A stretch of DNA of 23,048 bases from a virus: positions 1 through 23,048 of the IMG/VR virus record IMGVR_UViG_3300036860_000110; one strand, written 5' to 3'. Shown here piece by piece: positions 1,751 to 15,987 of the stretch. The translations under genes and the position numbers were made by a program. How positions within the stretch are numbered: position 1 is the stretch's first letter; each line of letters begins with the position of its first letter. The notes beneath the pieces were generated by a model that saw nothing but the letters and a program-made list of their open reading frames with translations, did not search any database and had not been told where the DNA came from.

Positions 1751-4608
1751 CAGCGGGTGACCCCACCGACACGCCGGCTCGCCCGTGCCTGCCCGGCGGC
1801 CAGGTCATCGACCACGATCCGGGGCGGGTTGGCGCGGAGCTCATCGGCGAGCGCCCGGATCGAGTCGGGGTGCAGCCGGATGCTTTCCTGCGGGCCGATG
1901 AACCGCTCCGGCCGGCTGGTCAGGTTGATCCCGCTCTCCCCCGGCATCAGCCAGCCGCCCCGGTCGAGGACCCGCCGGTAGCCGGTCCCGACCCGCCCGC
2001 CGGACACGCGGACGACGTCGCCGGTGTGGGGGGCGTGGAGCATCCGGTCCCCGCCGAGGTAGAACCCGATGTGATGCGCGGGGCTGCCGAAGTAGATCAG
2101 GTCACCCAGCCGCGCGCCGGCGCGGGACACGCCCCGGCCGGCGTGGGCCTGCTGCGCGGCGACCCGGGGGAGACGGACCCCGCCGGCGGCGAAGCCGCGG
2201 AGCATCAGCCCGGAGCAGTCCCACCGGTCCGGGCCGGTCGCGCCCCACTGGTACGGCTCGCCGAGCTGCGCCGTCAGGAACTTGAGGACCCGGCCGATCC
2301 GTCCCGAGGGGATCAGGAACTTCTTGAGCGCGGCGCCGAGCTGCGCGGCGATCCTAGCGAGCTGCGCGTTGACCTTCGGGACGTTGCGTTCCAGGTTGCT
2401 GACCGACCCGAACGGGGTGATGTGCACGCCGGGCGCGTCGCCGGCGTCGCCGACCGGTCCGCCGCGGGCCATCCCGTGGGCCAGGAGCTGACGGGTCTGC
2501 GCTGCGGTGTACACGTAGCCGGGCTGGTGGAACTGGACGAGCTCGGGGCCTTCCTCCCCGACCAGGGTCGTCACACCCAGGCTTGTGGGGCCGCCCTTGG
2601 CTTGGCGCCGCACGATCCCGAGCGGCCCGGTCGATGAGAAGGTCTGCAGGATCGCCTCGGCCTTGACGGTGACCTTCTTGTCCTTGATCCCGCCGAGCTT
2701 GGCGTTCACCTGGTCCCGGAAGGTGTCGAACGTCTTGGCCGCGCTGCGGAGTTTCCCGCCGATGCCGGGCACCCACCCGAACGCGGTCGCGGCGGCGTGG
2801 ACGATGGTGCCGGCGACGTCGAGGAAGGTGTTGGCCAGGAACCGGAACACCGGCTTCAGAACGGTCTCCCACATCCACTTCCCGGCCGCCGCGACCGCCC
2901 GGAACGCCGCGTTGACGATTGCGCGGAATTTGTCCGAGTGCTTGTAGGCCAGGACGATCCCGGCGACCAGCGCGGCGACCGCGACGATCACGATCCCGAT
3001 CGGGTTGGCCGTCAGCGCCGCGTTGACGAGCCACTGGACCGCCGCCCACGCCCGGCTCGCCACAGCGACCGCCTTGGCGGCGATGGCCTGACCGATCATC
3101 GCGGCGCGCGCCCGAAGCGAGGTGAGGATGCCGACCTTCCCGGCGGTGGTGGACACCTCGGTCGCCACAGTGTTCCCGGTGATCGCGCCAGTGTTCTCGA
3201 CCAGCGCGGCGGTGTGGGCCTTGAGCGCCCGGTTCTGCGCGAACAGCGCCGCGATCCGGAACGGCGCCGCGATGTTGGAGATCAGGTCGCCGATCTGGAC
3301 TAGTGGTGCGGTGACGCTGCGGATCGCGCGGAACGCGAGGAACCCGGCGAGGATCGCGGGGAGCCACGGGAGGATGTTGTGGAGGTTGCGGGCGACCGCG
3401 TCCAGGACCGGCCCGACGATGATCAGGCTGTTGGCGAACATGTGGCCGCCACCACCAGCCTGCTGCAGGGCCGGGCCGACCTGGCTGGACGAGGTGAACA
3501 GCTTGCCGAAGCTCTGCCCGATCCGGCCGAGGAGCGGCCCGAAGCTTTTGGCCCAGTCGACCACCTGCCGGCCTTTGACGCCGAGCCGTTCCATGGTCCC
3601 GACGAAGGTGCCCGCCTGGGTGGTGATCCCCTCACCCGAGAATGCGGCCTGGAGCGCGGTGATGCCGTACCCGAGCTCTTTCGAGGTGGGCACCGCCTTG
3701 GCGAACGAGGTGGCCAGGCGGGTCACGACCGCGCCAGCCTTCGGCCCGTAGGTGCTGGCCAGCACCGTCAGCGCGGGGAGGAGCTTCGAGGTCATCGCCT
3801 TGGTCACGGCCAGCTGCGCAGGCAAAAAGCCTTGGCCGATGGTGGTCTTCAGGTTCTCCCACTGCGCCTTCTGGATCCGCTGCTGGTTCGCCAGCCCGCC
3901 GCTGGTCCGCGCGAAGTCGCCCTGCGCACGAGTCGAGTCGTGCATCATGATCGTGTAGGTCGCCTGCGCCTTCTCAGCGTCAGTCAGGTCCTTCACGCTC
4001 TTCTTGTGGGTTTGGGAGAGCGCGACCTGCTGGACCCGCGCGGCGTTGATCGCGGGGATGAACCGCTGGAGCGAGTCGTATTCGCCGCGGAAGGCGGCCT
4101 GCTGCGCCTCCAGCACCTGGCTGATGTCGGCGTTGGAGAATGAGGCGAGGTCGGAGGCCAGCCCGACCATGCTCTTGCTCATCTTGGTGGTGGTCGGCAG
4201 GCCGATGCCGAGCTGGCGGAACATGTCCCCGAACGCGGAAGCGTTCGTCAACGCCTCATTCCGGGACAGGCCGAACGACTTGGCCGATCCGCGCGCCCAC
4301 TGCTGGATCCCCTTCGCGCTTTTCCCGAAGATGACGTCGGTCTTGTTGACCGTCTCGTTCAGATCCGACGCGGCCTTGGTGGTCGCCAGGACACCCTTGG
4401 TCGCCAGCACCGTCGCAGCGGCCAGCCCCACACCGATCGCCACGCTGGAGGCTTTCAGCCCTCGCGCGAAGCTCCGACCGAAATGGTGGGACGCCTGCTC
4501 GCCGGCCTTGCTGACCGGACCCTGGAGCTTGCTGGCCAGCTTCCGGTTGAACCCTGGCTCAAGCTCCCCGTGAACATCGAGGTACGCGTCACCTGCGGAA
4601 AGGCCCAA
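1750..4608 (-). CDS. Tape measure protein with C-terminal NlpC/P60 peptidase (952 aa)
   Basis: Sets tail length and is ejected with DNA. Starts TTG 4608, six bases after AGGAG. The N-terminal half is helical and rich in Ala/Gln, with hydrophobic stretches at about 54-78 and 390-432 and a long one at 537-560 (NPIGIVIVAVAALVAGIV), typical of tape measures. Near 685 is a GEEGPELVQF motif. Residues about 770-880 are an NlpC/P60 domain: C798 in DCSGL, H846 in HHIGFYLGG, H858 in MLHAPHTG, so the catalytic triad is complete. The enzyme should cut peptidoglycan stem peptides during DNA entry. About 70 C-terminal residues follow. Stop overlaps the next ATG (TGATG). Confidence 0.92.
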   Translation of the reverse strand: MGLSAGDAYLDVHGELEPGFNRKLASKLQGPVSKAGEQASHHFGRSFARGLKASSVAIGVGLAAATVLATKGVLATTKAASDLNETVNKTDVIFGKSAKGIQQWARGSAKSFGLSRNEALTNASAFGDMFRQLGIGLPTTTKMSKSMVGLASDLASFSNADISQVLEAQQAAFRGEYDSLQRFIPAINAARVQQVALSQTHKKSVKDLTDAEKAQATYTIMMHDSTRAQGDFARTSGGLANQQRIQKAQWENLKTTIGQGFLPAQLAVTKAMTSKLLPALTVLASTYGPKAGAVVTRLATSFAKAVPTSKELGYGITALQAAFSGEGITTQAGTFVGTMERLGVKGRQVVDWAKSFGPLLGRIGQSFGKLFTSSSQVGPALQQAGGGGHMFANSLIIVGPVLDAVARNLHNILPWLPAILAGFLAFRAIRSVTAPLVQIGDLISNIAAPFRIAALFAQNRALKAHTAALVENTGAITGNTVATEVSTTAGKVGILTSLRARAAMIGQAIAAKAVAVASRAWAAVQWLVNAALTANPIGIVIVAVAALVAGIVLAYKHSDKFRAIVNAAFRAVAAAGKWMWETVLKPVFRFLANTFLDVAGTIVHAAATAFGWVPGIGGKLRSAAKTFDTFRDQVNAKLGGIKDKKVTVKAEAILQTFSSTGPLGIVRRQAKGGPTSLGVTTLVGEEGPELVQFHQPGYVYTAAQTRQLLAHGMARGGPVGDAGDAPGVHITPFGSVSNLERNVPKVNAQLARIAAQLGAALKKFLIPSGRIGRVLKFLTAQLGEPYQWGATGPDRWDCSGLMLRGFAAGGVRLPRVAAQQAHAGRGVSRAGARLGDLIYFGSPAHHIGFYLGGDRMLHAPHTGDVVRVSGGRVGTGYRRVLDRGGWLMPGESGINLTSRPERFIGPQESIRLHPDSIRALADELRANPPRIVVDDLAAGQARASRRVGGVTR

Positions 4609-5364: not shown

Positions 5365-5826
5365 TCATCTCCTTCCGCTGATCGCCCGCTGCTGGCCACT
5401 GATCGCGGGTCGCGGCCGGCTACCGATCGCGCGTCGGGCGACCATGCCGCCGACAGCGCCGAGCGTCTGACCGGCCAGCACCCGGAAACCGACCTGCTGC
5501 GCCGCACGGGCGAGGATGTGGCGTGCCCGCTTGCCGCCCCTGCGGTCACCCCAGCCCCGCTCCGCCCAGTGCGACTTCCAGTCGGTCGCCACGACCCGGC
5601 CGACCAGCTCGCCATGCTCGTTGGTGCCGGTGTCGGCCTCGATGCCGCGCACATACCCGCCGGTTCGGTAGAACTCGCGGCGGCCGATCTGTCGGGCCCG
5701 CTGCGCGATCTCCTCCGCCGCCTCGCCGAGCACTCGCTCCATCGGCCCGTGCGTTTCCGCGCGGGAGCCGAGAAGCCGGCCGGTGAGCTCGGCCTCGAGG
5801 TTGGGGTTGATGCGGATGTTCGCCAT
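5365..5826 (-). CDS. HK97 gp10-like protein (153 aa)
   Basis: ATG 5826 overlaps the previous stop. The N-terminal half is a helix-rich module (LEAELTGRLLGSR, MERVLGEAAEEIAQRARQI), followed by FYRTGGYVRGIEAD, ELVGRVVATDWKSHWAERGWG, the pattern of gp10-type neck/tail completion proteins. The C-terminus is basic and Arg/Gly-rich. Such genes usually precede the tail terminator; here the gene follows the major tail protein. It is one base from the chaperone gene, whose AAGGAG site lies within its end. Confidence 0.7.
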   Translation of the reverse strand: MANIRINPNLEAELTGRLLGSRAETHGPMERVLGEAAEEIAQRARQIGRREFYRTGGYVRGIEADTGTNEHGELVGRVVATDWKSHWAERGWGDRRGGKRARHILARAAQQVGFRVLAGQTLGAVGGMVARRAIGSRPRPAISGQQRAISGRR

Positions 5827-6386
5827 CAGGCGAAAGCGGGGTCGTTGGTCAGGATCGTGCCGAGCACGGTGCCCGAGGCGGGCGACATCGCGGAGATCGT
5901 GAAGGGCCATTGGATCGCGTCGTTCCGCCCGACCGTGGTCTCCCCGGTGTCGGTGACCATGCACCGCGGCATGATGAACCGGTAGATCAGCGCCGCGTCG
6001 GTCCATTCCAGCCCGAACACCCGCTCATCCACCGTCGGCGCGGAGGAGATGTCGAACTTGTACTTCCCGGCCGCCTGGGTGACCACGGAACCGCCACCGA
6101 AGTACAGCGGCAGGATGTCCTTGTCGGACTGGAGCAGCGTGAACGCGCAGGTGAGGCCGACGCCGGTGATGAGGTAGCGCAGCACCCCGATCGACTGCCA
6201 CGCCTTCACCATCTCGGTGTCCATGCTGCGCGCGAGCTTCCCGCCATCCTCGGTCGCAAACCCGATGTTGACGAACGCGCCGGGCCACGCGGCCAGGATG
6301 TCCACTGGCGGGGTCGTCCCGGACGGCGCGATGTAGATGGTGCCGTTCGCGCCGACCCTGATCTCTGAGGCCGCTTGGCCAGCCAC
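5826..6386 (-). CDS. Major tail tube protein (186 aa)
   Basis: Builds the siphovirus tail tube. Start GTG 6386 with a strong AAGGAGG upstream. Tail-tube features: N-terminal RVGANGTIYIAPSGTTPP, ILAAWPGAFVNIGFATEDG (the strand and loop after which tube proteins describe alternating strands), MVKAWQSIGVLRYLIT, then VFGLEWTDAALIYRFIMPRCMV and a C-terminal INAMSP-type strand (here TISAMSPASGTVLG). Position before the chaperone and tape measure genes agrees. The TGA overlaps the next ATG as TGATG. Confidence 0.8.
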   Translation of the reverse strand: MAGQAASEIRVGANGTIYIAPSGTTPPVDILAAWPGAFVNIGFATEDGGKLARSMDTEMVKAWQSIGVLRYLITGVGLTCAFTLLQSDKDILPLYFGGGSVVTQAAGKYKFDISSAPTVDERVFGLEWTDAALIYRFIMPRCMVTDTGETTVGRNDAIQWPFTISAMSPASGTVLGTILTNDPAFA

Positions 6387-7119: not shown

Positions 7120-7560
7120 CTAGACCATCGCTGAGGTGATGACTTCCAGGCCGACGCTCGCGCCGACATGCTCGACGCCGGCACCCTCGAACCCTCTGCG
7201 GTACCCGCTCCACCCGGTCACCCGCGCCTTGCAGTTGAGCAGCCCGAACGCGTCGCGGCGCTGGTCGCGGCTGGCGTAGACCGCCTGCCGGATCGACCGG
7301 GGCCCCGCGCCGGTGAGGAACGCGTCGAGCTTGTTCTGCGCGAGCACGTCGTCGGCGGCAGAGCAGAGCACGTCCAGGTCGAACAGGTACAGGTCGTCCA
7401 CGCCCGGGCCCATGCCCGCCTCATAGGTCCCGCCGCGGGGGACCACCACGACCGCTGGCAGGTTCACCACCGAGGAGATCTCGGGGTAGCCGAACAACCC
7501 GGGGATCGCGGCGACCAACGTGGCGCTGGCCGCGTCGCGGATCTCCTCCATCCCGGCCAC
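7120..7560 (-). CDS. Tail terminator (tail completion) protein (146 aa)
   Basis: Caps the tail tube and joins it to the neck. Start taken as GTG 7560 behind a GGAGG/GCAGG region; ATG 7551 is an alternative. Family-like pattern: N-terminal helix EEIRDAASATLVAAIPGL, NLPAVVVVPRGGTYE, DLYLFDLDVLCSAADD, helix QNKLDAFLTGAGPRSIRQAV, and a C-terminal strand VEHVGASVGLEVIT. Length of about 140-150 is normal for the family. Position after the connector and before the major tail protein agrees. Confidence 0.75.
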   Translation of the reverse strand: MAGMEEIRDAASATLVAAIPGLFGYPEISSVVNLPAVVVVPRGGTYEAGMGPGVDDLYLFDLDVLCSAADDVLAQNKLDAFLTGAGPRSIRQAVYASRDQRRDAFGLLNCKARVTGWSGYRRGFEGAGVEHVGASVGLEVITSAMV

Positions 7561-7563
7561 CGG

Positions 7564-8538
7564 CTACCTGCCTCCGTGGAAGAGGCTGGACCGCTGCGGG
7601 GTGTAGTTGAGCGTCCGGCTCCGGGTCTTCATGAACGGCTCGAGCATCGCGGCCACATCGGGGTCCTCGTAGCGGGAGATGCGTACGGGGCCGAAGTCGG
7701 TGAAGCCGCGCCACCCGTCGGGGGAGTCCTTGCGGCGGAACAGTTTGACCGCCTTCAGGATGGCGGCCTGGTTGACCCCGTAGGGAATGGCTGGCCAGCC
7801 GAACCGGGCGGTCACCTGCACGCCGGCGCGCTGCGGGAACACGGGGAACTGGCGGGTGCCGACCGCGACGATCTCCCACCACGCGGACCCTTCGAGGTCG
7901 GCGTTGAGCGGCTCGAGCTGGAAGTCGGTGGTGATCGTCCAGGTCGTCTCGAAGACCCCGTCGCCGTCCTCGTCGGTCTTGACCAGCAGCCCGGTCGCGG
8001 TGGAGATGTCGGCGACCCACGCGCGCCACGGGTCATCGGTCCGGAAGACACGGATCGTGGGGGCGAGGTCCCGCCAGAACCGGCGGGGCGCGTCGGTGAC
8101 CCCACCGGAGCAGTAGGTGTCGATCGCCTCGGAGGTCGCGTTGACGGCCCGCTGGAGCAGCGTCCCGTCGAGGTTGCCGCCGTCGTCGCCGAGCTGCCCG
8201 CGGACCTCCCCGACCGTGCAGTAGAGCGCCGAAGGCGTCGTGCCCGCGGGGGTGACCTCGAACTGGCCCTCGCTGACCTCGGTGAGCGCGCCCGTCGCGG
8301 CGAACTTATAGCTCCAGATGCCAGGCTGGGAGCACGACCCGACCGCGGTGTACACCCGGACGGGGCCCACCGGTGTGCCCGGCGTGGTCGTCGGCGTGTC
8401 CGGCGTGCCGTCCGGCTTGGTGACCGTGGTCGTGACGACCACGCCGGCCCAGTTGGTGAACGCCGGATCGTCGGCGGTCAGGGTGTAGGGCAGCTTGTAG
8501 CTGTCGCCGACGCTCAGCGGCTCTGGGCTTGCGGTCAT
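7564..8538 (-). CDS. Head-tail connector with Ig-like N-terminal domain (324 aa)
   Basis: ATG 8538 overlaps the previous stop (ATGA), with GGGGAGG upstream. Residues 1-100 look like an Ig/fibronectin-type domain (VVVTTTVTKPDGTPD, PGIWSYKFAATG, EGQFEVTPAG). From about 106 the sequence turns to a gp6-like adaptor: YCTVGEVRGQLGD, helix LLQRAVNATSEAIDTYC, and a C-terminal helix VNQAAILKAVKLFRRKDSP followed by FGPVRISRYEDPDV. Connectors of this type form the ring under the portal. The extra N-terminal domain makes it about twice the size of a minimal connector. The next gene starts four bases after its stop. Confidence 0.8.
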   Translation of the reverse strand: MTASPEPLSVGDSYKLPYTLTADDPAFTNWAGVVVTTTVTKPDGTPDTPTTTPGTPVGPVRVYTAVGSCSQPGIWSYKFAATGALTEVSEGQFEVTPAGTTPSALYCTVGEVRGQLGDDGGNLDGTLLQRAVNATSEAIDTYCSGGVTDAPRRFWRDLAPTIRVFRTDDPWRAWVADISTATGLLVKTDEDGDGVFETTWTITTDFQLEPLNADLEGSAWWEIVAVGTRQFPVFPQRAGVQVTARFGWPAIPYGVNQAAILKAVKLFRRKDSPDGWRGFTDFGPVRISRYEDPDVAAMLEPFMKTRSRTLNYTPQRSSLFHGGR

Positions 8539-10271
8539 TCCACGCTCACCTCCCCTTCCGCGCTGGTCACGGTGACGGTGCCCTGATGTTGGCTGGCGAC
8601 CAGGACTGACCCGGCCGGCCCGCCGACGTTGACCCGGCCGAACGCTTTGACGACTGCGGCCAGCATCGTGGCGACGACCTGGCCGGCGAGCCGCTGCTGC
8701 CCGCTGGTCGCGCCGCGGCCACCCTTCGCCCCGGCGGTGGTGGCACCGATCCTCTGCTGGCCGCTGGTGGCACCGACGGCGCGGTGGATCCCGGTGCTCG
8801 CGCCGGCGGTGCGCTGCTGCCCGCTGGCAGTGCCGACGGCGCCTTTCCGGCCGGTCGACAGGCCGGTGACCCGCTGCTGGCCGACCGCCGCGCCGGAGGG
8901 TGGCGGTGGGGCGGTGGTGGCCAGCCCGGTGGTGCGCTGCTCCCCGATGGTCGCGCCGGTGGCCTGCTTGCGTGCCGACGCTGTACCGACGCTGCGCTGC
9001 TGCCCACTGCCGGCGCCGAGCGCCTGCTTGCGGACGGCCACTTGGCCGGCGGTGCGCTGCTGGCCGCTCTGCGCACCGACGGCGCCCTTGGTCCCGGTGC
9101 TCTGGCCGGTGACGCGTTGCTGGCCGCTGGTCGCTCCGGTGGCGAACGGCGCGCCCCGGACCGCGAGCCCGGTGGTGCGCTGCTCCCCGACCGTCGCCCC
9201 GAGGGCCTGCTTGCGGACCGCGACCAGCCCTGCGGTTCGGGCCTGCCCTTGCGTGGCGCCGACGGCGCCCTTGCTGCCGGTCGACAGCCCCGACACCCGC
9301 TGCGCGCCCACCGTGGCGCCCGCGGCCCCCTTGACGCCCGTGGCCAGCCCGGCTACCCGGGCTGCGCCCACCGTGGCGCCGGCGGCGCCCTTGACGCCCG
9401 CGCTGGTGCCGGTGGTGCGCTGCTCCCCGGTCGCCGCGCCGGAGCTCGCCTGCCCACCACCGGTGATGGCGTACTTGGTGAGCAGATAGTTGGTGACCAG
9501 GTCCCGGTCCGCGTCGGCGATCTTGTTCGCGCCGACGTAGACGATCAGCTCGGCGATGTCGCCAGCCCAGAACTCCCCGAGCCCGTCCGCGCGGCCACCG
9601 ACCGCTGCGGCGAGCGCGTTGGTCGCCGATGTCGTCCCCGAGCTGGTCAGCGCCAGGTTCGACCCGATCTGCGTCCCGTCGAGGTTGAGGAACCCGTCGC
9701 CGTTGACGTAGTCCATGATCGCCGAGTGGACATGCCAGGCGGTGTCGTCGTTTGCGTCTTCGATGTTGGCGGCCGCGTCGGCGTCCAGCCGGCGGGCGGT
9801 CATCCCCCACACCCCCGACCCGGCGGGGGCGCGCTGCCCCGCCTTGAGGCGGGCCGAGTTGGCGGCGGTGCCGGTGGAGATCGCCAGGTAGTCGTTGGTG
9901 GTCGCGGCGGTCGCGCTCAGCTTGGCGACCGCGAAGAAACTGATCGCACCAATCGCGTTCGTGGCGGCGAGCAGATCGGTGGTGGCCAGGTTCATCCAGT
10001 CGTTGGAGCCGTCGAACCGGACAACTGGAAGGCCGTTGATGACTGCGGTCTGGTAGGTGGGCTGGTTGGCGCCGGTCGGCTGGGTGGCGTCGTTTGCGCG
10101 GCCGCTCGCGTCGGCCCAGGTGGCGACGGCGGCGCCGCCGGAGAGGCCGCCGATCTTGTCGGCGGCCAGCCACAACCGCAACCCCGCGACGGTCTGCGGG
10201 GCCTCCAGCGGAGGCTTGCCGTGCAGGTAGATGGCCCGGCGTGGCTGCCGCCGGCCGGTGAACCGGGCCAT
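8535..10271 (-). CDS. LamG-like protein with thirteen 20-residue repeats (578 aa)
   Basis: ATG 10271. Residues about 25-275 form a concanavalin-A/LamG-type beta-sandwich: GLRLWLAADKIGGL, WADASGRANDATQP, LPVVRFDGSNDWMNL, WAGDIAELIVY and a closing VTNYLLTKYAI helix. From residue 278 there are 13 tandem units of 20 (two of 21) residues with consensus GATxGQQRxxGxxTGxKGAx, very low in aromatics and with regular positive charges. Residues 530-578 form a short beta-rich tail. Such LamG heads on repetitive stalks usually bind sugars or surfaces. The gene lies on the head side, ahead of the connector, so a capsid fibre is as likely as a tail fibre. Stop overlaps the connector ATG (ATGA). Confidence 0.8.
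   Translation of the reverse strand: MARFTGRRQPRRAIYLHGKPPLEAPQTVAGLRLWLAADKIGGLSGGAAVATWADASGRANDATQPTGANQPTYQTAVINGLPVVRFDGSNDWMNLATTDLLAATNAIGAISFFAVAKLSATAATTNDYLAISTGTAANSARLKAGQRAPAGSGVWGMTARRLDADAAANIEDANDDTAWHVHSAIMDYVNGDGFLNLDGTQIGSNLALTSSGTTSATNALAAAVGGRADGLGEFWAGDIAELIVYVGANKIADADRDLVTNYLLTKYAITGGGQASSGAATGEQRTTGTSAGVKGAAGATVGAARVAGLATGVKGAAGATVGAQRVSGLSTGSKGAVGATQGQARTAGLVAVRKQALGATVGEQRTTGLAVRGAPFATGATSGQQRVTGQSTGTKGAVGAQSGQQRTAGQVAVRKQALGAGSGQQRSVGTASARKQATGATIGEQRTTGLATTAPPPPSGAAVGQQRVTGLSTGRKGAVGTASGQQRTAGASTGIHRAVGATSGQQRIGATTAGAKGGRGATSGQQRLAGQVVATMLAAVVKAFGRVNVGGPAGSVLVASQHQGTVTVTSAEGEVSVE
8681..9440 (-). repeat. In-gene tandem repeat array, 60-bp period, 13 units
   Basis: Units of 60 bases (two of 63) begin at 9440 and step down to 8714, the last one merging into the C-terminal domain. 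Each unit reads a Gly-rich half with GQQR or GEQR and a second half with GxKGA or RKQAL. Two alternating second-half types (TGxKGA and AVRKQAL) recur, suggesting blocks of two or more units were duplicated together. The array is in frame throughout. Confidence 0.9.
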
Positions 10272-10274
10272 CGG

Positions 10275-10475
10275 CTACCCCAACCGCAGGATCACACCGA
10301 CCAGCCGATGCGGCCGGATCGGCTCCCCGCTGGCCTCGTCGATACCGTGGTCTTCCACTTCGATGTCGAGCTCGGCGCCGGCCACGTCGACCAGCTCCCC
10401 GTCGGCCAGCCGGACCCGGACGGGCATGTCCGCCTTGACCAGCGCGGCCACCTCCAGCAGCTGCCCATAGGTCAT
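10275..10475 (-). CDS. Small acidic hypothetical protein (66 aa)
   Basis: ATG 10475 is one base after the previous stop; a GAGGA run lies upstream. The protein has an N-terminal helix (YGQLLEVAALVKA) and then short strands rich in Asp/Glu/Val, ending VGVILRLG. No family recognised. It is three bases from the LamG-repeat gene, suggesting co-translation and perhaps a chaperone or partner role, which is inference only. Confidence 0.6.
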   Translation of the reverse strand: MTYGQLLEVAALVKADMPVRVRLADGELVDVAGAELDIEVEDHGIDEASGEPIRPHRLVGVILRLG

Positions 10476-10476
10476 G

Positions 10477-10953
10477 TCAGGTCCTCTCGAAGAACATGGT
10501 CGGGGTGACGTTGACAGCGGCCGGAGCGGTCATGCGGAGCGCGAACCCGTTGGACACCGGGGTGTCCCATGACCGGCCCGGTGGGCGCTCGACGAGGATG
10601 AAGCCCTTGTTGGGGTCGAGCCCGAACCGCCAGATTGGGGTGAGCACGGTCGGCTCGTTGGCGGCGGTCCACGCGGACGCGGCGGTGAATCCGGGCGTGA
10701 TCGTCGGCCCGTACTCCTGCTGCGGGGTGATCGTGGTCGAGTTGGTGCCAGGCGCGTTGGTGGCGAAGGTGGCTCGGCACAGCTCGACGACGACGATCAC
10801 CGCGGTGGCGGTCACCCCGTCGAAGACGAACGAGAAGCCTTGCAGGTCGCAGCCGAACTGGGCTGGTGACTGGACGCCGATCGTGGTCTTGGCGGTGGCT
10901 GCGACCAGCGCTACCGCCGCTGCCGCTGGCGCGGAATAGCCTGCCTTGGCCAT
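10477..10953 (-). CDS. Putative virion protein (158 aa)
   Basis: Start at ATG 10953, five bases after AGGAG. After an Ala-rich N-terminus (residues 1-21) come beta-type stretches: GCDLQGFSFVFDGVTATAVI, ELCRATF, PTVLTPIWRFGLDPNKGFIL and a C-terminal NGFALRMTAPAAVNVTPTMFFER. Sequences of this kind occur in phage structural regions. Function unassigned. Its TGA lies one base before the start of the next gene. Confidence 0.65.
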   Translation of the reverse strand: MAKAGYSAPAAAAVALVAATAKTTIGVQSPAQFGCDLQGFSFVFDGVTATAVIVVVELCRATFATNAPGTNSTTITPQQEYGPTITPGFTAASAWTAANEPTVLTPIWRFGLDPNKGFILVERPPGRSWDTPVSNGFALRMTAPAAVNVTPTMFFERT

Positions 10954-10961
10954 TGATGCTC

Positions 10962-11588
10962 CTATCGGGCGTCGGCGTACCTGATTGCCCTGCGGTAGAT
11001 GACCGGCTTGGGTGCGGTGCCGGCCTGCACGACCGAGTTGAGCGTCTCGGTGAACGTGACGTACGTGTCCCCAGCGACCGCGGCGGTCGGGCCCGAGTAG
11101 GTGTTGGTGATGGTGTGGCCGCTGCCCATCGTCCCGACGTTGCGGACCTTCAGGGTCACCTTGATCCGGTCGGTGTTCACCAGCGCAGTGGAGGTCGGGG
11201 TGTACGTGCCGTTCTTGGCCGCATCGCTGGTGGAGTACTCGGTGATGGTGCTCGGCACCGTGACGTCGTTCAGGATCGTGGAGATCACATTGCCGAGCGA
11301 GTCGCACCGCTCCACGAGGATCCCCGCGCCGCAGTTGGCGCTGACGCTGGACTCTTTCCCGCGGACATTGACAGTGACTATCCCCGAGATCGTGACCGCC
11401 AGCAGCTGGGTCGAGAACCACGTGAGGATCTGCCCGCCGCCGGTTGCGGTGACGGTGATGTTGGTCCCTGAGGCTGCGTCGTTGGTGATCGCGTTCGCCG
11501 ACGCTGCGCCTCGAGAGGTGGAGAGGGCCTTCTGCCCTGCGCCGCCAAGGTCAGAGGCGGCATCGGTGAGGAACAGCGTTGTGGCCAT
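10962..11588 (-). CDS. Virion structural protein, jelly-roll-like (208 aa)
   Basis: Begins ATG 11588 immediately after the previous TGA, with only a weak GGTGGTG upstream, so coupling is likely. Sequence resembles a recurrent phage and metagenomic structural family: MATTLFLTDAASDLGG, LSTSRGAAS, a TISGIVTVNVRGKES strand pair, GTYTPTSTALVNTDRIKV, and the C-terminal GPTAAVAGDTYVTFTETL. No catalytic motif. Probably a surface, fibre or baseplate component; placement in the head half of the region leaves open whether it is on the capsid or the tail. Confidence 0.7.
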   Translation of the reverse strand: MATTLFLTDAASDLGGAGQKALSTSRGAASANAITNDAASGTNITVTATGGGQILTWFSTQLLAVTISGIVTVNVRGKESSVSANCGAGILVERCDSLGNVISTILNDVTVPSTITEYSTSDAAKNGTYTPTSTALVNTDRIKVTLKVRNVGTMGSGHTITNTYSGPTAAVAGDTYVTFTETLNSVVQAGTAPKPVIYRRAIRYADAR

Positions 11589-12275
11589 TCACACCACCGT
11601 CGCCTGACCACCCTGCGAGAACGGCTCCTCCGCAGCTGCCCGGTAGACCAGCATGGCGCCAAGCGCCAAGCCCATCGTGCCGCCGAGATCGGCGGTGCAT
11701 TCGTACGTGCCGCCGGCCCCCGGATAGGCGCGGGACACCATGACCGTGATGTTCCCGCTGCCGTTGTTCAGCGTGATCTCCTCACCCTTGACGAACCCGG
11801 CGGTCTGCGGGGTCATCGTGGTCACTGCGGAGGAGGTGGCGTGGACAGCGATGCAGGCAATGTCGGTGTCGTCGACCTGCGGGGTTGTCCCCGTCGAGAG
11901 CGTGGCGACGCTCAGCCCGGAGTTGGTGGCGTACTGGTCGAGCGGCGAGACACGATCCACGCTGGAAAACTCGTACGCGAGCCAGGCGAAGATGTTGCCG
12001 CTGGAGGGGAACTGCGCGTCCAGCGGCCAGGAGTTCTCGCCGCCGAACACCTCCCGGTGGCGGCGTTGCAGCATGGTGTTGCCGCCCGCGCCCAGCGACG
12101 GCCCGTCATCCATGAACCCCGCCGCCACGATCTCGAGGCTGGAGCTGTTGTTCCGGAAGGTGAGGAGCAGGACGGTGCTGCCATCCTGGGTGGGGTTGGG
12201 GAGGCTCGCCGTCCCAGTTTGGGTCGTGAAGGTGCCGAATGCTGGAGGCTGAACCAGACTCGCCTCAGAAAGCAT
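11589..12275 (-). CDS. Putative virion protein (228 aa)
   Basis: Start set at ATG 12275, six bases after GGAGG; a TTG two codons upstream is less likely. The protein is strongly beta-patterned, with PPAFGTFTTQTGTASLPNP, STVLLLTFRNNS, a central acidic/aromatic region (SGNIFAWLAYEFSSVD) and a C-terminal MGLALGAMLVYRAA strand. Such sequences are typical of jelly-roll or sandwich proteins on virions, but I recognise no named family. The stop is directly followed by the next ATG with no spacer. Its translation start is enclosed in a long hairpin. Confidence 0.65.
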   Translation of the reverse strand: MLSEASLVQPPAFGTFTTQTGTASLPNPTQDGSTVLLLTFRNNSSSLEIVAAGFMDDGPSLGAGGNTMLQRRHREVFGGENSWPLDAQFPSSGNIFAWLAYEFSSVDRVSPLDQYATNSGLSVATLSTGTTPQVDDTDIACIAVHATSSAVTTMTPQTAGFVKGEEITLNNGSGNITVMVSRAYPGAGGTYECTADLGGTMGLALGAMLVYRAAAEEPFSQGGQATVV

Positions 12276-12303
12276 GCTCAACCTCCAGCATGATCATTTC
12301 GGC
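12234..12303 (-). promoter_or_regulatory. Hairpin with buried ribosome binding site and start codon at the loop edge
   Basis: In the minus-strand RNA bases 12291-12276 pair with 12254-12239: 14 Watson-Crick pairs and two G-U wobbles, 16 pairs without a mismatch. An outer helix of 12303-12299 with 12238-12234 adds five pairs after a seven-base bulge. The GGAGG site is inside the stem and the ATG at 12275 is the first codon of the 21-base loop. A short upstream frame (ATG 12297, MIMLEVEHAF, stop at 12265) runs across the stem and could open it when translated. No U-run follows. Confidence 0.65.
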
Positions 12304-12304
12304 G

Positions 12305-12616
12305 CTACTGGCGGTTGGGGTACTGGTCGATCGCCCATTGCTTCGCGGCGTCCTGGGTGCAGCCGACATCGCTGGTCCCGTTCACCGTCCCCTGCGCGTA
12401 CGAGTACGGGTTGTAGTACGTCGGGTTCGCGGCGGCGTAGGCCGGGTCGTAGACGCCGGGGGCGGGCTGCGGGTCGGGGTAGCACGCCACCGGGGTGGCG
12501 GCCTGCCAGTAGTAGAAGACGCCGAAGCTGGTGCCGTTGCAGGTGACGGTCATCTTGACGTCCTCACCAGCGATGCAGACGTGCTCGAAGACCCAGCCGG
12601 AACCACCGTGCGGCAT
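12305..12616 (-). CDS. Hypothetical Tyr/Pro-rich protein (103 aa)
   Basis: ATG 12616 follows GGAAGGAGA by seven bases, a strong site. The first half has two cysteines and strands (FEHVCIAGEDVKMTVTCNG), the second half is rich in Tyr, Pro, Ala and Asn (YDPAYAAANPTYYNPYSY) before a short helix ending QWAIDQYPNRQ. No known family recognised; the composition suits a surface or virion protein. Lies between the HNH gene and a larger virion-type gene. Confidence 0.65.
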   Translation of the reverse strand: MPHGGSGWVFEHVCIAGEDVKMTVTCNGTSFGVFYYWQAATPVACYPDPQPAPGVYDPAYAAANPTYYNPYSYAQGTVNGTSDVGCTQDAAKQWAIDQYPNRQ

Positions 12617-12631
12617 GCGCTGCTCTCCTTC

Positions 12632-12664
12632 CTATGCGGGCAGGCTGATCGGGAAGCTCGACAT
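12632..12664 (-). pseudogene. Orphan 10-codon tail resembling the C-terminus of the upstream virion protein
   Basis: Right after the HNH stop, overlapping it as TGATG, a frame reads MSSFPISLPA and stops at TAG. The protein upstream of the HNH gene ends SAFSVALPG: S, F, L and P coincide and the others are conservative. This could be the displaced original end of that gene, separated by insertion of the HNH unit that brought its own replacement end. With so few residues, chance is a real alternative. Confidence 0.3.
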
Positions 12665-13317
12665 CATTTGCGGCTCAGCCTCCATTGGCGCTTGTAGTGC
12701 TTGTGGCAGAGACCACGCGCTTTCGCCGCCTGCGCACAACCCTCGATCACGCAGATCACACCAAGCCACTTGGTCCTGCTGCCACGCTGCACGTTCTCTT
12801 GGTGCGTCACCGGCTCGAGGTGATCGAACCGCACGCACGCAGGGACACGGCAAAGATGGTCCGGCTCGAAGCCCTCGCGGATCGGGCCGACGAACCGCTC
12901 GAAGCCCCAGCGATGCGCCCCGACCGAGCGGCCATGCTCGTTCGAGAACCAGCCATATCCCTGCCAGTTGAACGGCTCAATCCACAGCCAGCACGGACCG
13001 AGGTCCGGGCGGTGCTCCGGTATGGGGCCGTCCTTGTTGACTCGCGCCCACCAGCGCTCCTCCGGGGTGCCGCTGTTGCGGATCCGCAGGCGGGCTTCCG
13101 GATCGCCGTGCCGTTGCCAGCGGCGGTAGTGCGTCTGGCACCAGCCGTGTGCCTTGACCGGCCGGTCGCAGCCGTCGATTGAGCAGGTTTCCTCCGGCCG
13201 AGACTGCGGGTCAGCCGTTGTGCCGTGCCGCTGCCAGCGGCTGTAGTGCTTCCGGCAGAGCCCCTGCCCTACCGCTGAGCCTTCGCAGCCGTCGACCGTG
13301 CACGTACGCTTGGCCAT
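12664..13317 (-). CDS. HNH homing endonuclease with three zinc fingers (217 aa)
   Basis: Free-standing HNH endonuclease. Starts at ATG 13317 behind GGAGGGG. Two N-terminal fingers of pattern C-x4-C-x9-C-x2-H (C6, C11, C21, H24 and C45, C50, C60, H63), each followed by a YxRWQRHG-type helix, and a third copy at the C-terminus (C189, C194, C204, H207), presumably bind DNA. The nuclease core has WLWI (110-113), AHRWGFERF (134-142), PDHLC (152-156) and RFDHLEPVTHQENVQRG (163-179). The position often held by Asn in the central HNH motif is Arg163, as in many actinobacterial CVRPDHL-type members. The gene has no virion role and interrupts a structural block, as selfish homing genes do. Confidence 0.9.
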   Translation of the reverse strand: MAKRTCTVDGCEGSAVGQGLCRKHYSRWQRHGTTADPQSRPEETCSIDGCDRPVKAHGWCQTHYRRWQRHGDPEARLRIRNSGTPEERWWARVNKDGPIPEHRPDLGPCWLWIEPFNWQGYGWFSNEHGRSVGAHRWGFERFVGPIREGFEPDHLCRVPACVRFDHLEPVTHQENVQRGSRTKWLGVICVIEGCAQAAKARGLCHKHYKRQWRLSRK

Positions 13318-13351
13318 GTCGGCACCCCTCCTCGATGTCGGGTGTCGTCCT

Positions 13352-13382
13352 GGCCCCCGGCCGCTCCAACGGTGCGGGGGCC
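13352..13382 (-). promoter_or_regulatory. GC-rich hairpin in the leader of the HNH gene
   Basis: GGCCCCCG at 13352-13359 pairs with CGGGGGCC at 13375-13382, with a short inner CCG/CGG helix. No U-run follows in the transcript. A TAGGAT box at 13401-13396 would suit a -10 element directed toward the HNH gene, with the hairpin then in its leader; the -35 region is not convincing. It may be a terminator for the upstream gene or part of the mobile unit carried by the endonuclease. Confidence 0.45.
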
Positions 13383-13410
13383 GTTCTGTCCAACCATCCT
13401 ACACGAAAGC

Positions 13411-14058
13411 TCAGCCAGGAAGTGCGACGCTAAAGGCCGAAACTTGGTAGGTTCCCTGCGCCGCGAACACTTCGGGCGTGAACTTCTGGACGTCGCCGTC
13501 GCCGATTGCGGTGATGTTGATTGCGGCGCCGCCGAGGGTGAGCGAGAGCTGGAAGGTGTCGGTGGTCACGCCGACGACGAAGTACTCTGTGTCCTCCGCC
13601 ACACCGGTCGGGAGCACCGCGCCGATCGTGGGCCACACCAGCACCGAATTGCCGTTGGCGAGGCCATGCGCGGGCGAGTCGAACGCGTCGGCGGTGACTC
13701 CGGCCGCGTTCACGGTGAAAGCGCGCCGGGCCGTGCTGCCCGCTGGCATCCATGCTCGCATCGTCGCAGCACCGGACGAGGAGTCGACCAGTGAGACCGC
13801 CCTCACGGTCCCTGCCGGGACGTCGAAGGTGACCGCCGCGGTGATGTCCTTCTGGCCCTGCACGACGGCACCGGCCGCCTGCCAGGTGATCGCCTTCCGT
13901 GCGTAGGCGGGCGCGCCGCCGGTGACCTCGTTGCCTGGGTTGACGGCCGGGGGGAAGCCGGTGTGGAGCGCCAGGAACGGTGTCGCCGGGTTGAGGGCAG
14001 CGGCGACGGCACTGTCCAAAAGGGCATTTTTACATGCATTGGTCAAGATGGCCGTCAA
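13411..14058 (-). CDS. Virion (tail or fibre-type) protein (215 aa)
   Basis: Starts at TTG 14058, chosen because GGAGGG is seven bases upstream and no better start exists. Residues about 1-105 resemble a widespread phage structural family: a short helix (LTNACKNALLDSA), then FLALHTG, a NEVTGG segment, YARKAITW and an AAVTFDVPAGTVRAVSLVD core. Residues about 115-215 look like a second beta-rich domain ending SAFSVALPG. Probably displayed on the virion surface. Its neighbourhood shows fragments resembling its N-terminus (14643-14699) and C-terminus (12632-12664), pointing to past duplication or insertion. Confidence 0.7.
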   Translation of the reverse strand: MTAILTNACKNALLDSAVAAALNPATPFLALHTGFPPAVNPGNEVTGGAPAYARKAITWQAAGAVVQGQKDITAAVTFDVPAGTVRAVSLVDSSSGAATMRAWMPAGSTARRAFTVNAAGVTADAFDSPAHGLANGNSVLVWPTIGAVLPTGVAEDTEYFVVGVTTDTFQLSLTLGGAAINITAIGDGDVQKFTPEVFAAQGTYQVSAFSVALPG

Positions 14059-14112
14059 CTGAGAACCCTCCTAGTGTGTCCTGCCCTGACCGCGCGACCG
14101 CTCGGCGGCGGT

Positions 14113-14646
14113 TCAGGCAGCGCTCACACAGACGGCATAGGCGTAGCGCGTGACGGCATACGCATTGTTGTTGATGAAGACCGTGACCCATGAGAACGCC
14201 GGGCCACTCGAATTCTGATAGTTCGGCGTAGAACTGCGTATATCCACGCCCGATTCCGACTCGAAGCCACCAGCAATGGCTGTCTTGCCTGTAGGGCAGT
14301 CAACCGACGCCTGACCGAGCGAGTTCGCCGGGATGGAGATCTCTTCCTGGACGTACTGAAGTCCCGAGACGCCATCCGCTCCCGCCGGCCCGGCCGGCCC
14401 CGCTGGCCCCGCTGCGCCTGTTGGCCCGGCTGGTCCTTGCGGGCCGGTCTGGCTCCAGTTGAGAGCCGTGTACCCGCTCGGGCAGCTCGCCGCCGAGTCG
14501 ATGGCGATCAGTGCGCCCTGCGCAGGGTTCGAGGTCTTGTAGCAGCCGTGGATCACGCCGTCGGGGCCGGGGATGCTGGCCCACGCGATGCCGCCGATGG
14601 CCAGCAGCAGCGCGACGACGAGCACGACGACGAACGGTCTCTTCAT
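14113..14646 (-). CDS. Exported collagen-like protein (177 aa)
   Basis: Starts at ATG 14646 with AGGAG upstream; a farther in-frame start at 14706 lies within the previous gene. Residues 4-23 are an export signal ending AWA, followed by a domain with VIHGCYKTS and TALNWSQTGP. Residues 68-91 are eight Gly-X-Y triplets, mostly GPA. The C-terminal domain (about 95-177) has CPTGKTAIAGGF and ends YAYAVCVSAA. This architecture is common in exported proteins of actinobacterial chromosomes. Base composition over 14150-14350 is visibly less GC-rich than the flanks. Host origin is likely; a virion fibre role is the alternative, since phage fibres also use Gly-X-Y. Confidence 0.8.
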   Translation of the reverse strand: MKRPFVVVLVVALLLAIGGIAWASIPGPDGVIHGCYKTSNPAQGALIAIDSAASCPSGYTALNWSQTGPQGPAGPTGAAGPAGPAGPAGADGVSGLQYVQEEISIPANSLGQASVDCPTGKTAIAGGFESESGVDIRSSTPNYQNSSGPAFSWVTVFINNNAYAVTRYAYAVCVSAA

Positions 14647-14699
14647 GCGGTCACTCCTGTCATCGCGTTGACGCACACGTCGGTCAGGATCGCGTTCAC
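14643..14699 (-). CDS. 18-codon mini-ORF, possible remnant of a virion gene N-terminus
   Basis: Reads MNAILTDVCVNAMTGVTA from GTG 14699 to TGA. It begins in a GTGA overlap with the stop of the proline-rich gene and ends in an ATGA overlap with the collagen-like gene start, so it bridges the two and would couple their translation. Its first 13 residues match the start of the virion protein encoded at 13411-14058 (MTAILTNACKNAL) at 8 of 13 positions. It may be a translated leader, or the stump of a second copy of that gene that lost its body when the collagen-like gene arrived. Confidence 0.45.
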   Translation of the reverse strand: MNAILTDVCVNAMTGVTA

Positions 14700-15049
14700 C
14701 GGCCACTGCCCCGCTTGCTGGACCCGTTGGACGGGCCGCCGGGCTGGCCGAGCAGCGCGCGGACCTGCTCCATGTCCGGCTGCGCGACGACCAGCTCCCC
14801 CGGCCACACCTGCAGGTGCCCCATGAGGATCTGGACGATCTGCTGGGTGAACGCCCGATCGGAGAAGATCGTCTTGGTGCCCGAGGGGGTGGTGATGTCC
14901 CAGCGGAGCATGTGCAGCGTCGGCTGGCCCGGCTGGGTCGCGGTGACCAGGTCCACCTTCACCTGGGTTGGCAGCGGCTGCGGGACGACCTGCGGTGCCG
15001 CCGGTGGCGGCAGCGGCGGCAGCGGCTGGGGGGTTGGCTCCGGGGTCAT
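14696..15049 (-). CDS. Proline-rich N-terminus hypothetical protein (117 aa)
   Basis: ATG 15049 follows the preceding TGA by one base, so translation is probably coupled. Residues 1-30 are Pro/Gln-rich; residues about 30-105 form a mixed fold with VKVDLVTATQPGQPTLHML and FSDRAFTQQIVQILMG, and the C-terminus is Gly/Ser-rich and basic. No signal peptide, unlike its neighbours. Function not recognised. Its TGA lies in a GTGA overlap with an 18-codon mini-ORF. Confidence 0.7.
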   Translation of the reverse strand: MTPEPTPQPLPPLPPPAAPQVVPQPLPTQVKVDLVTATQPGQPTLHMLRWDITTPSGTKTIFSDRAFTQQIVQILMGHLQVWPGELVVAQPDMEQVRALLGQPGGPSNGSSKRGSGR

Positions 15050-15050
15050 C

Positions 15051-15458
15051 TCAGAGCGTCACCGAGATCCCGTTGGTCACGTCGGTCACGGTCACGGCCC
15101 CGAACACGACCGACATCGGCGGGGAGCAGGACGGCTGGAACACCGCCTTGAGGTCGAGCGAGAAGTACGCCTTGCCGTTTTGCACAGGCACGTCGGCGGA
15201 GGCGGTCACGGTCTCCTTGTTGGTGGCCTGGGGGAACTGCTGCCCCGGGTTCAGGCACGCCGCCACCACGGACGCTTCGACGGTGATCTGGGTCTCGTCG
15301 CCGAGGCCGGCTTCCTTCCCGCTCACCGTCAGCGTGTCACCCGAGCGGGTCGTGGTGACCGTGCCGTCGACGAAGTGGGGCGAACCGGCCCACGCCGGCG
15401 CCGCGGCGACAGCGAGCAGCGCGCAGGCCAGCGCGAGGATGGTGATGATTCGCTTCAC
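15051..15458 (-). CDS. Secreted protein with Sec signal peptide (135 aa)
   Basis: Starts at GTG 15458 with AGAAGGAG about six bases upstream. Residues 1-24 form a textbook Sec signal: MKR, a long Leu/Ala/Ile core, and a cleavage site AWA before G25. The mature part is about 111 residues, Thr/Val-rich and probably beta-structured, with two cysteines (in VAACLNPG and PSCSPP) that could form a disulfide outside the cell. No known domain recognised. A Sec-exported protein inside a virion gene block is unusual and suggests a moron or surface-acting product. The stop is one base before the next ATG. Confidence 0.8.
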   Translation of the reverse strand: MKRIITILALACALLAVAAAPAWAGSPHFVDGTVTTTRSGDTLTVSGKEAGLGDETQITVEASVVAACLNPGQQFPQATNKETVTASADVPVQNGKAYFSLDLKAVFQPSCSPPMSVVFGAVTVTDVTNGISVTL

Positions 15459-15481
15459 GAATGCTCCTTCTCAGCAGTTGG

Positions 15482-15643
15482 TCAGAGTCGTGCCCATGCG
15501 GCCCACGCGAGCGTGAGCATCCAGCAGGCCAGGCCCGCGGCGACTAGGTCGTGGCGCCACGGCTTGGCGAAGAAGGCGACGATGAACAGCACGAGCGCCG
15601 CGAGCAGCAGCACGGCGACGACCCACGGGGCCATGGCGGGCAT
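15482..15643 (-). CDS. Two-helix membrane peptide (53 aa)
   Basis: Start set at ATG 15643 because GGGAGG lies five bases upstream; the frame is open further up but without a site and overlapping the previous gene. Residues about 5-26 and 32-50 are hydrophobic helices joined by the basic turn KPWRHD, and the protein ends in WARL. This is a minimal hairpin membrane protein; no family recognised. It precedes two genes whose products carry export signals, so the group may act at or outside the host membrane. Confidence 0.65.
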   Translation of the reverse strand: MPAMAPWVVAVLLLAALVLFIVAFFAKPWRHDLVAAGLACWMLTLAWAAWARL

Positions 15644-15653
15644 GCGAACCTCC

Positions 15654-15935
15654 CTAGGCGAGCCACACCGACCCGGACAGGGTCCCGGTCGAGATGGTGG
15701 CGAACACGCCGTTGGCGGCCCGGAGCCCCGTGGCGATCGCCACGGTCGCCGCCAGCGCACCCGCAGCGGTGTCGAAGGTGGCCAGGATCGTCCCGGACCC
15801 GGCCGCCGCGTTGTCCCACAGGGTCACGGTCGCCGCGACGGAGGTGCGCAGGCTGTACCCGCGCAGCTCGCACGGGTTGGCGCTGATGACCCCGGCCGCC
15901 GCGGCGGCGGGCGAGGCCATCACATCCAGCGACAT
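15654..15935 (-). CDS. Small beta-rich protein after capsid, possible decoration protein (93 aa)
   Basis: Start taken at ATG 15935, seven bases after AGGGG; a GTG two codons earlier (15941) is the alternative. After an Ala-rich N-terminus the protein alternates short hydrophobic strands and Gly/Ala/Thr turns (LRGYSLRTSVAATVTLWDN, later GVFATISTGTLSGSVWLA), the look of a small beta-sandwich. Similar proteins occur near capsid and tail genes of many phages, usually unannotated. Being directly after the capsid gene, a capsid decoration or head-fibre role is a reasonable guess but unproven. Its ribosome binding site and start codon are inside a long hairpin. Confidence 0.65.
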   Translation of the reverse strand: MSLDVMASPAAAAAGVISANPCELRGYSLRTSVAATVTLWDNAAAGSGTILATFDTAAGALAATVAIATGLRAANGVFATISTGTLSGSVWLA

Positions 15936-15970
15936 CAGCACACCCCTAGGAGGGGCATGCTGATGTCGCT
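15928..15970 (-). promoter_or_regulatory. 20-bp RNA hairpin hiding the ribosome binding site of the next gene
   Basis: In the minus-strand transcript bases 15970-15951 pair with 15947-15928 around a three-base loop. Eighteen pairs are Watson-Crick and two adjacent ones are G-U or U-G wobbles, so the helix is complete only in this RNA strand; the opposite strand would carry A-C mismatches. The AGGGG ribosome binding site (15947-15943) and the ATG (15935-15933) of the downstream gene both lie in the 3' arm. No U-run follows, so it is not a typical intrinsic terminator. It begins 17 bases after the capsid stop. Likely roles: limiting translation of the next gene, or shielding the 3' end of capsid mRNA. 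Confidence 0.7.
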
Positions 15971-15987
15971 CCGCCAGGTCCGCCGGC

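Follow-up and report, generated by a model that had tools for sequence, protein, structure and literature searches.

A lectin-like head on a 20-residue repeat stalk, encoded as exchangeable cassettes between the capsid and adaptor genes of an uncultured siphovirus-like phage

The window, by which we mean the whole stretch of DNA analysed here, is a 23,048-base IMG/VR virus record representing a fragment of an uncultured siphovirus-like phage. Its core genes, as read from the open reading frame list, Pfam and PHROGs, all lie on the minus strand in the standard order from a terminase-like gene to a distal tail protein, with an accessory slot between the capsid and adaptor genes:

21501-23048, minus strand: terminase-like gene, named by gene order and comparison with related phage
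19339-20778, minus strand: portal-like gene, named by gene order and comparison with related phage
15988-18957, minus strand: capsid maturation protease/major capsid fusion (Phage_capsid_4, E = 2.9e-40; phrog_4523)
8539-15987, minus strand: accessory slot of about 7.4 kb containing the stalk gene, nearly empty in related phages
14113-14706, minus strand: collagen-like slot protein, its N-terminus bearing a hydrophobic segment (match to Pfam collagen at E = 3.3e-5, below the cut-off)
13411-14058, minus strand: slot gene related to the podophage GP4 fiber I protein gp80 (PF23140, E = 2.6e-12; phrog_240, head protein)
12664-13317, minus strand: HNH endonuclease that carries zinc-finger-like repeats and lies among the structural genes
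7564-8538, minus strand: head-to-tail adaptor (phrog_5938 connector; tblastn matches to the adaptors of Rhodococcus phages Shagrat and Jflix2)
7120-7560, minus strand: terminator-like gene, named by gene order and comparison with related phage
5826-6386, minus strand: tail tube gene
1750-4608, minus strand: tape measure gene with an NlpC/P60 domain
2-1750, minus strand: distal tail protein with LamG and CBM domains

Among genomes, those matching the capsid best were Actinomadura, Nonomuraea, Sphaerisporangium, Amycolatopsis, Parafrankia and Crossiella (47-54% identity), weaker matches occur in other phyla, and the nearest prophages of the phage are found mostly in Actinomycetota. Judged from such similarity, the host is probably an actinobacterium (Actinomycetota). 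The adaptor itself carries about 130 additional N-terminal residues (8143-8538, minus strand) that look beta-rich or Ig-like by eye and gave no Pfam match; the Rhodococcus adaptor matches begin near residue 133 and leave this extension uncovered, and the adaptors of four related contigs (L002, L006, L008 and L056) have N-terminal extensions that are similar to that of the window yet different from it.

In Rhodococcus phages with the same core, the slot consists of one 204-base gene (Shagrat) or of none (REQ1). Seven actinobacterial prophages have roughly 0.5-0.8 kb between capsid and adaptor, and of 31 adaptor relatives in which this interval is visible, most carry the capsid gene immediately ahead of the adaptor. 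Since the slot is nearly empty in all of these, its cargo appears dispensable for assembly. Where slots are filled, the cargo is often adhesin-like: LamG stalks, a 36-residue Pro/Trp/Arg repeat in L007 and 22-residue repeats in L056. The L007 protein (15240-16241 of that contig) comprises about eight 36-residue Pro/Trp/Arg-rich repeats (RRGxRWDPPWPFxPPAPP), had no match in the phage collection, and ends in the same C-terminal cassette as the window's stalk protein. Repeats of 22 residues (AAGSTVTPATVAATAAVPAATV type) occur in slot or neighbouring genes of two actinophage-like contigs (L045:5263-8511 and L056:2-502), and the slot protein of L077 has, by eye, the look of a pectate-lyase-type or depolymerase-type beta-helix. 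In L006, a gp80-like gene with 65% identity to that of the window lies directly 3' of the stalk gene. Relatives of the HNH endonuclease sit at a different place in L007 (19026-19562) and also occur in L006. A fused glycosyltransferase group 1 and FkbM methyltransferase is encoded a few kilobases upstream of the stalk gene in L006 (14-1621) and L042 (925-2721), and phiPsal1 carries glycosyltransferases in the corresponding slot. The presence of such genes near the slot suggests glycosylated virion surface proteins; the window holds no glycosyltransferase gene.

The stalk gene lies inside the slot, within the morphogenesis cluster, and immediately precedes the adaptor gene. Its stop overlaps the adaptor start as ATGA in the window, L002 and L007. 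From N- to C-terminus, its parts are as follows:

8535-10271, minus strand: whole stalk gene, 578 aa, ATG start and TGA stop; the frame is open in the window and has an orthologue in L002
10188-10271, minus strand: basic N-terminal leader, aa 1-28 (MARFTGRRQPRRAIYLHGKPPLEAPQTV), seen in the sequence; a similar basic leader is found in L042
9462-10187, minus strand: LamG/ConA-like lectin domain, aa 29-270, placed by profile matches of relatives, phrog_10356 and the DNA border with L042
8682-9440, minus strand: repeat stalk of 13 units, placed by lag-20 self-identity and orthologous arrays in L002 and L006
9321-9380, minus strand: unit 2, a single 60-bp unit missing from L002 (in-frame gap in DNA and unit alignments)
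9138-9200, minus strand: unit 5, 21 aa, linker-like (RGAPFAT), matching long units L002 unit 4 and L006 unit 5
8895-8957, minus strand: unit 9, 21 aa, proline linker (TTAPPPPS), matching long units L002 unit 8 and L006 unit 10
8538-8681, minus strand: C-terminal cassette type 1, aa 531-578, ending in GSVLVASQHQGTVTVTSAEGEVSVE, common to L007 and, weakly, L002

By eye, no signal peptide is evident in the leader (aa 1-28). Between the window and L002, 30 of the codon differences in the LamG part (243 codons) are synonymous and 12 nonsynonymous; for the stalk part (222 codons), the counts are 32 and 26. On these counts, the gene encodes a real protein under purifying selection, with a stalk that evolves faster than the LamG domain.

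We located 13 units on the minus strand, running from 9440 down to about 8682, in agreement with the thirteen that the first-pass annotation had placed at 8681-9440. They begin at residues 278, 298, 318, 338, 358, 379, 399, 419, 439, 460, 480, 500 and 520; eleven are 20 residues long, while units 5 and 9 have 21 and end linker-like in GAPFAT and APPPPS. Self-identity at lag 20 was 0.434; in 2000 shuffles that preserved composition, no value across lags 5-44 exceeded 0.237. A chance or low-complexity product of a G+C-rich frame could be imagined here, as the DNA is high in G+C and full of overlapping spurious reading frames, with long ones on the opposite strand too; this explanation is refuted, and practically negligible, given a lag-20 signal far beyond the shuffles, orthologues in two other contigs, the synonymous excess and the same-strand packing of the genes.

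The unit consensus is GAT[SV]GQQR[TV][TA]GLSTGxKGA[VA] (short form GATSGQQRTTGLSTGxKGAV), with G1, G5 and R8 invariant in all 13 units, A2 and G11 kept in 12, Q7 in 11 and K17 in 9. Units are on average 48% identical in amino acids, compared with 13% expected from composition, and 59% identical in DNA. With its abundant G, A, T, S and Q, the stalk has almost no hydrophobic core or aromatic residues; an earlier statement that it lacks aromatics was nearly right, the array containing one Phe and one His. It is not collagen-like, as had been claimed: glycines fall at positions 1, 5, 11 and 15 rather than at every third residue, and the stalk had no Pfam match. Collagen-like segments of phage fibres likewise form low-complexity, aromatic-poor spacers, but the glycine spacing here is 4-6-4-6, with no Gly-X-Y and no Pfam collagen match. 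Of the internal order proposed in the first-pass annotation, the alternating half-units were only partly borne out, identity at lag 10 being just 0.20, and block duplication is visible in the unit types: units 3, 6 and 10 are 75-80% alike, units 4 and 7 80%, and units 5 and 9 65%.

The repeat had been described as unrecognised, and it is indeed absent from Pfam and PHROGs. Searched alone, the stalk gave no match in cultured phages (tblastn) or Pfam and only a meaningless row in PHROGs (E = 7.9), while the stalk alignment, run against the genome contigs and 395 genomes of the class of Nonomuraea, gave one weak match (L047), which we rejected as chance because it is antisense of an RCC1-like, Ig-rich gene. 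A repeat consensus of the 'ETDTAQ' type found no match in the phage collection, and in literature on 20-residue phage-fibre repeats and LamG decoration proteins, no title or abstract found describes the repeat. By sequence comparison, it is thus undescribed in the libraries searched (Pfam, PHROGs and the phage collection).

Copy number, which the first-pass annotation had proposed to compare, varies among three phages in whole units. L002, whose protein is 82% identical, has 12 units and lacks exactly 60 bases, in frame, which correspond to unit 2 of the window; the array of L006 is orthologous to that of the window and comprises 14 units. When the arrays are aligned unit by unit, the long linker units and the special ones (IHRA, KGGR) find their partners in each of the three phages, and random unit orders reached the observed score 0 times per 1000 for window/L002, once for window/L006 and 0 times for L002/L006. 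Tandem Repeats Finder reports 2.5 copies in the array. Because the units share on average only 59% of their DNA, the array appears old, and this divergence, together with the low Tandem Repeats Finder count and the unit-by-unit orthology, indicates that stalk length changes by whole units as rare evolutionary indels. The earlier note had read the array as a means of expansion and contraction that changes fibre length or antigenic surface; expansion and contraction stand, with 13, 12 and 14 copies in the window, L002 and L006, and a fast length or antigenic switch is not supported. Phase variation or antigenic variation, with copy number shifting within a population by slippage, would fit three phages with 12, 13 and 14 copies of exact 60-base units, but we consider it very improbable: phase-variable tandem repeats consist of near-identical adjacent DNA units, whereas this array, by both its DNA identity and the Tandem Repeats Finder count, offers no near-identical pool for slippage, and its unit order is kept across diverged phages with different heads.

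We modelled the stalk protein with AlphaFold from an alignment of three sequences (mean pLDDT 31, the stalk blocks being best at about 30-52) and the stalk alone (mean pLDDT 41). Both models place a short beta strand every 10 residues, at pLDDT mostly below 50. A pseudo-deep alignment of shifted six-unit segments added nothing, as the aligner returned each segment to its own place, and the stalk-only fold used a smaller segment set in its stead. Foldseek searches of both low-confidence monomer models against the PDB gave no significant match, none having E below 1; the beta-helix names that head the list are not evidence. Trimeric beta-spiral shafts of the adenovirus and reovirus type are built of 15-20-residue repeats with a conserved turn Gly or Pro and alternating hydrophobics; in the stalk, turn-like glycines are conserved, alternating hydrophobics are largely absent, and the model is a low-confidence monomer. 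The first-pass annotation had named constant copy number together with predicted disorder as what would count against its reading; that combination did not occur: the counts vary, and the models, with short strands at low pLDDT, point clearly neither to disorder nor to a fold.

It is possible, if doubtful, that the repeats form an unstructured, glycosylated or hydrophilic (mucin-like) spacer and that the lectin alone matters, a reading compatible with an adhesin. The composition of the stalk, the low model confidence, the glycosyltransferase/FkbM genes that neighbour the stalk gene of L006 and of L042, and the glycosyltransferases of the phiPsal1 slot agree with such a spacer, while the strict 20-residue register with its three invariant positions points to a structural repeat; the long units kept in place, length variation in whole units only, the regular strands in both models and the lack of a glycosyltransferase gene in the window also speak against it.

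The LamG assignment made in the first-pass annotation is supported, though weakly for the window copy alone: its match to Laminin_G_3 (PF13385; E = 0.0045, 17.6 bits) falls below the Pfam cut-off of 27.6, and the assignment draws on six of nine aligned relatives that match this family (best E = 2.8e-9) and on phrog_10356 (E = 2.6e-21), which PHROGs classes as 'head and packaging, virion structural protein'. The AlphaFold model of the LamG part has a pLDDT of only 20-30, and a jelly-roll fold cannot be read from it. A search for the domain in 297 genomes of the class of Nonomuraea gave a single distant LamG match, in Parafrankia (G005). A LamG-like protein of Pseudanabaena phage Pam2 (ON014754.1, 58054-58323) is annotated 'botulinum neurotoxin type A', a name that is most likely an annotation error, as the match covers only the ConA-like lectin part.

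Comparison of the stalk gene among related phages shows that it is made of three cassettes (head, stalk and C-terminus) exchanged independently between phages. L042 carries the head type of the window (about 80% amino acid and 83% DNA identity) on a different 20-residue stalk of 14 TDP units, most of them 20 residues long; in L008, a related head (42%) is joined to a third type of stalk, with 12 units, of which units 4 and 9 have 22 residues; and L006 bears the window's stalk type on another head, matching phrog_553. Independently of head and stalk type, the C-termini form one group in the window, L007 and, by a weak link, L002, and another in L006, L008 and L042, and the C-terminal cassettes of the window and L007 aligned with a score of 126, compared with at most 45 for shuffles. 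Within the stalk gene, DNA similarity to L042 is confined to 9462-10271 and that to L006 to the stalk (8682-9429), while similarity to L007 runs from 8626 onward through the adaptor. The breakpoints at 9462 and 8682 coincide with borders of the protein parts. Tail fibres are well known to exchange their receptor-binding ends as modules.

Between stalk types, hhalign gave a probability of at most 0.05% for all pairs, and the A-B score fell within the range of the column-shuffled control. Common ancestry of the 20-residue stalks of the window, L008 and L042 is undetectable by profile, and they share only period, position and partner domains; the shared period may reflect structural constraint or coincidence. 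Nor do all slot stalks have a period of 20, which is about 36 in L007 and 22 in L056. A bolder idea, which we would put forward only tentatively, is that the unrelated stalks GATSGQQRTTGLSTGTKGAV (window), GQATEAEAGQALGKLKTRAL (L008) and TDPEGLLDSASQAASFTQTA (L042) are interchangeable cassettes of one undescribed 20-residue fibre fold, such that phages swap lectin head, stalk and end piece as standard parts and tune reach by single units.

Like head decoration proteins and head fibres, the stalk gene sits among head genes and is accessory, as judged from its position and the near-empty slot of relatives. We favour, as reasonably probable, the reading that its product is an accessory virion fibre, attached to the capsid or neck, that serves adhesion. 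Such a fibre would combine a LamG/ConA-like head of the carbohydrate-binding type, a 20-residue-repeat spacer stalk and a short C-terminal segment, would be anchored on the capsid or neck, and could bind the cell or its glycans weakly and reversibly before tail engagement. We infer that the protein is part of the virion, that its head binds sugar, and that the stalk, as a probably oligomeric stiff rod or beta fibre, determines reach by its length; either end may be the anchor. The N-terminus is the anchor in most phage fibres, whereas here it carries the lectin. Support for an adhesion fibre comes from the capsid-adaptor position, the ATGA overlap, the resemblance to Galactica gp11 described below, the phrog_10356 class, the slot cargo, the relative of GP4 gp80, the cassette borders, purifying selection and the existence of an established class of head fibres.

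Tail fibre genes normally lie 3' of the tape measure gene. It is unlikely that the product is instead a tail (tip) fibre or minor tail protein merely encoded beside the adaptor, with the LamG head as its receptor-binding domain. The depositors of Galactica annotated gp11 as 'minor tail protein', the L006 head matches phrog_553, which bears the same name, and the distal tail protein of the window (2-1750) also has a LamG domain; such names, however, come from domain similarity rather than localisation, the stalk gene lies on the other side of the tape measure among head and neck genes, and a tail-end LamG protein is already present in that distal tail protein.

A close counterpart of the adhesion fibre we propose is gp11 of Streptomyces phage Galactica (MT316461), which is also encoded between the major capsid (gp7) and head-to-tail adaptor (gp12) genes, the last base of the stalk gene being the first base of the adaptor. 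Like the window protein, it has a carbohydrate-binding-like N-terminal part (by eye) followed by repeats of about 20 residues; it differs in its irregular repeats of another sequence type (closer to that of L008), its length of 1103 aa and its C-terminus. Surface-binding head fibres and decoration proteins that attach to the host and are dispensable for the stability of the capsid form an established class (PMC7602432). Within it, phi29 gp8.5, T4 Hoc, T5 pb10 and SPP1 gp12 are accessory head surface proteins that add little to capsid integrity and are presumed to attach, via carbohydrates, to surfaces of the host or of other origin (PMC7602432). Of these, gp8.5 is a coiled coil, Hoc and pb10 have Ig folds, and SPP1 gp12 is collagen-like, none being a LamG head on a 20-residue repeat stalk. 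Phage 7-7-1 has fibres at its capsid vertices for which the adenovirus fibre, with its tail, repetitive shaft and knob, served as model (PMC12796354); they share the shaft-and-knob logic and the shaft repeats, but the globular head of the window protein is N-terminal. The BACON repeats of crAss-like phages (PMC6949934) are likewise copies in an adhesion protein that evolve by duplication and horizontal unit exchange, but they are whole carbohydrate-binding domains rather than 20-residue units and are located with tail proteins.

What the first reading had described, a repeat stalk behind a LamG-like domain, survives without the rapid switch, and it amounts to a complete three-part adhesin-like protein whose gene lies on the head/neck side of the genome, where related phages have next to nothing in the slot. 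Because of this, a role in adsorption would be testable by simply removing the gene from a cultured phage, Galactica for instance. If folded, the nearly aromatic-free, hydrophilic repeat would add a new building block for fibres or spacers, and the single-unit length differences provide a natural series on whether stalk length matters. In Microcystis phage Mae-JY22 (L014:3-1421), a protein that is LamG-like by eye carries 22-residue His-rich repeats (LTVxDATHAHxxDxxALTQVHQ) and is encoded upstream of the capsid gene.
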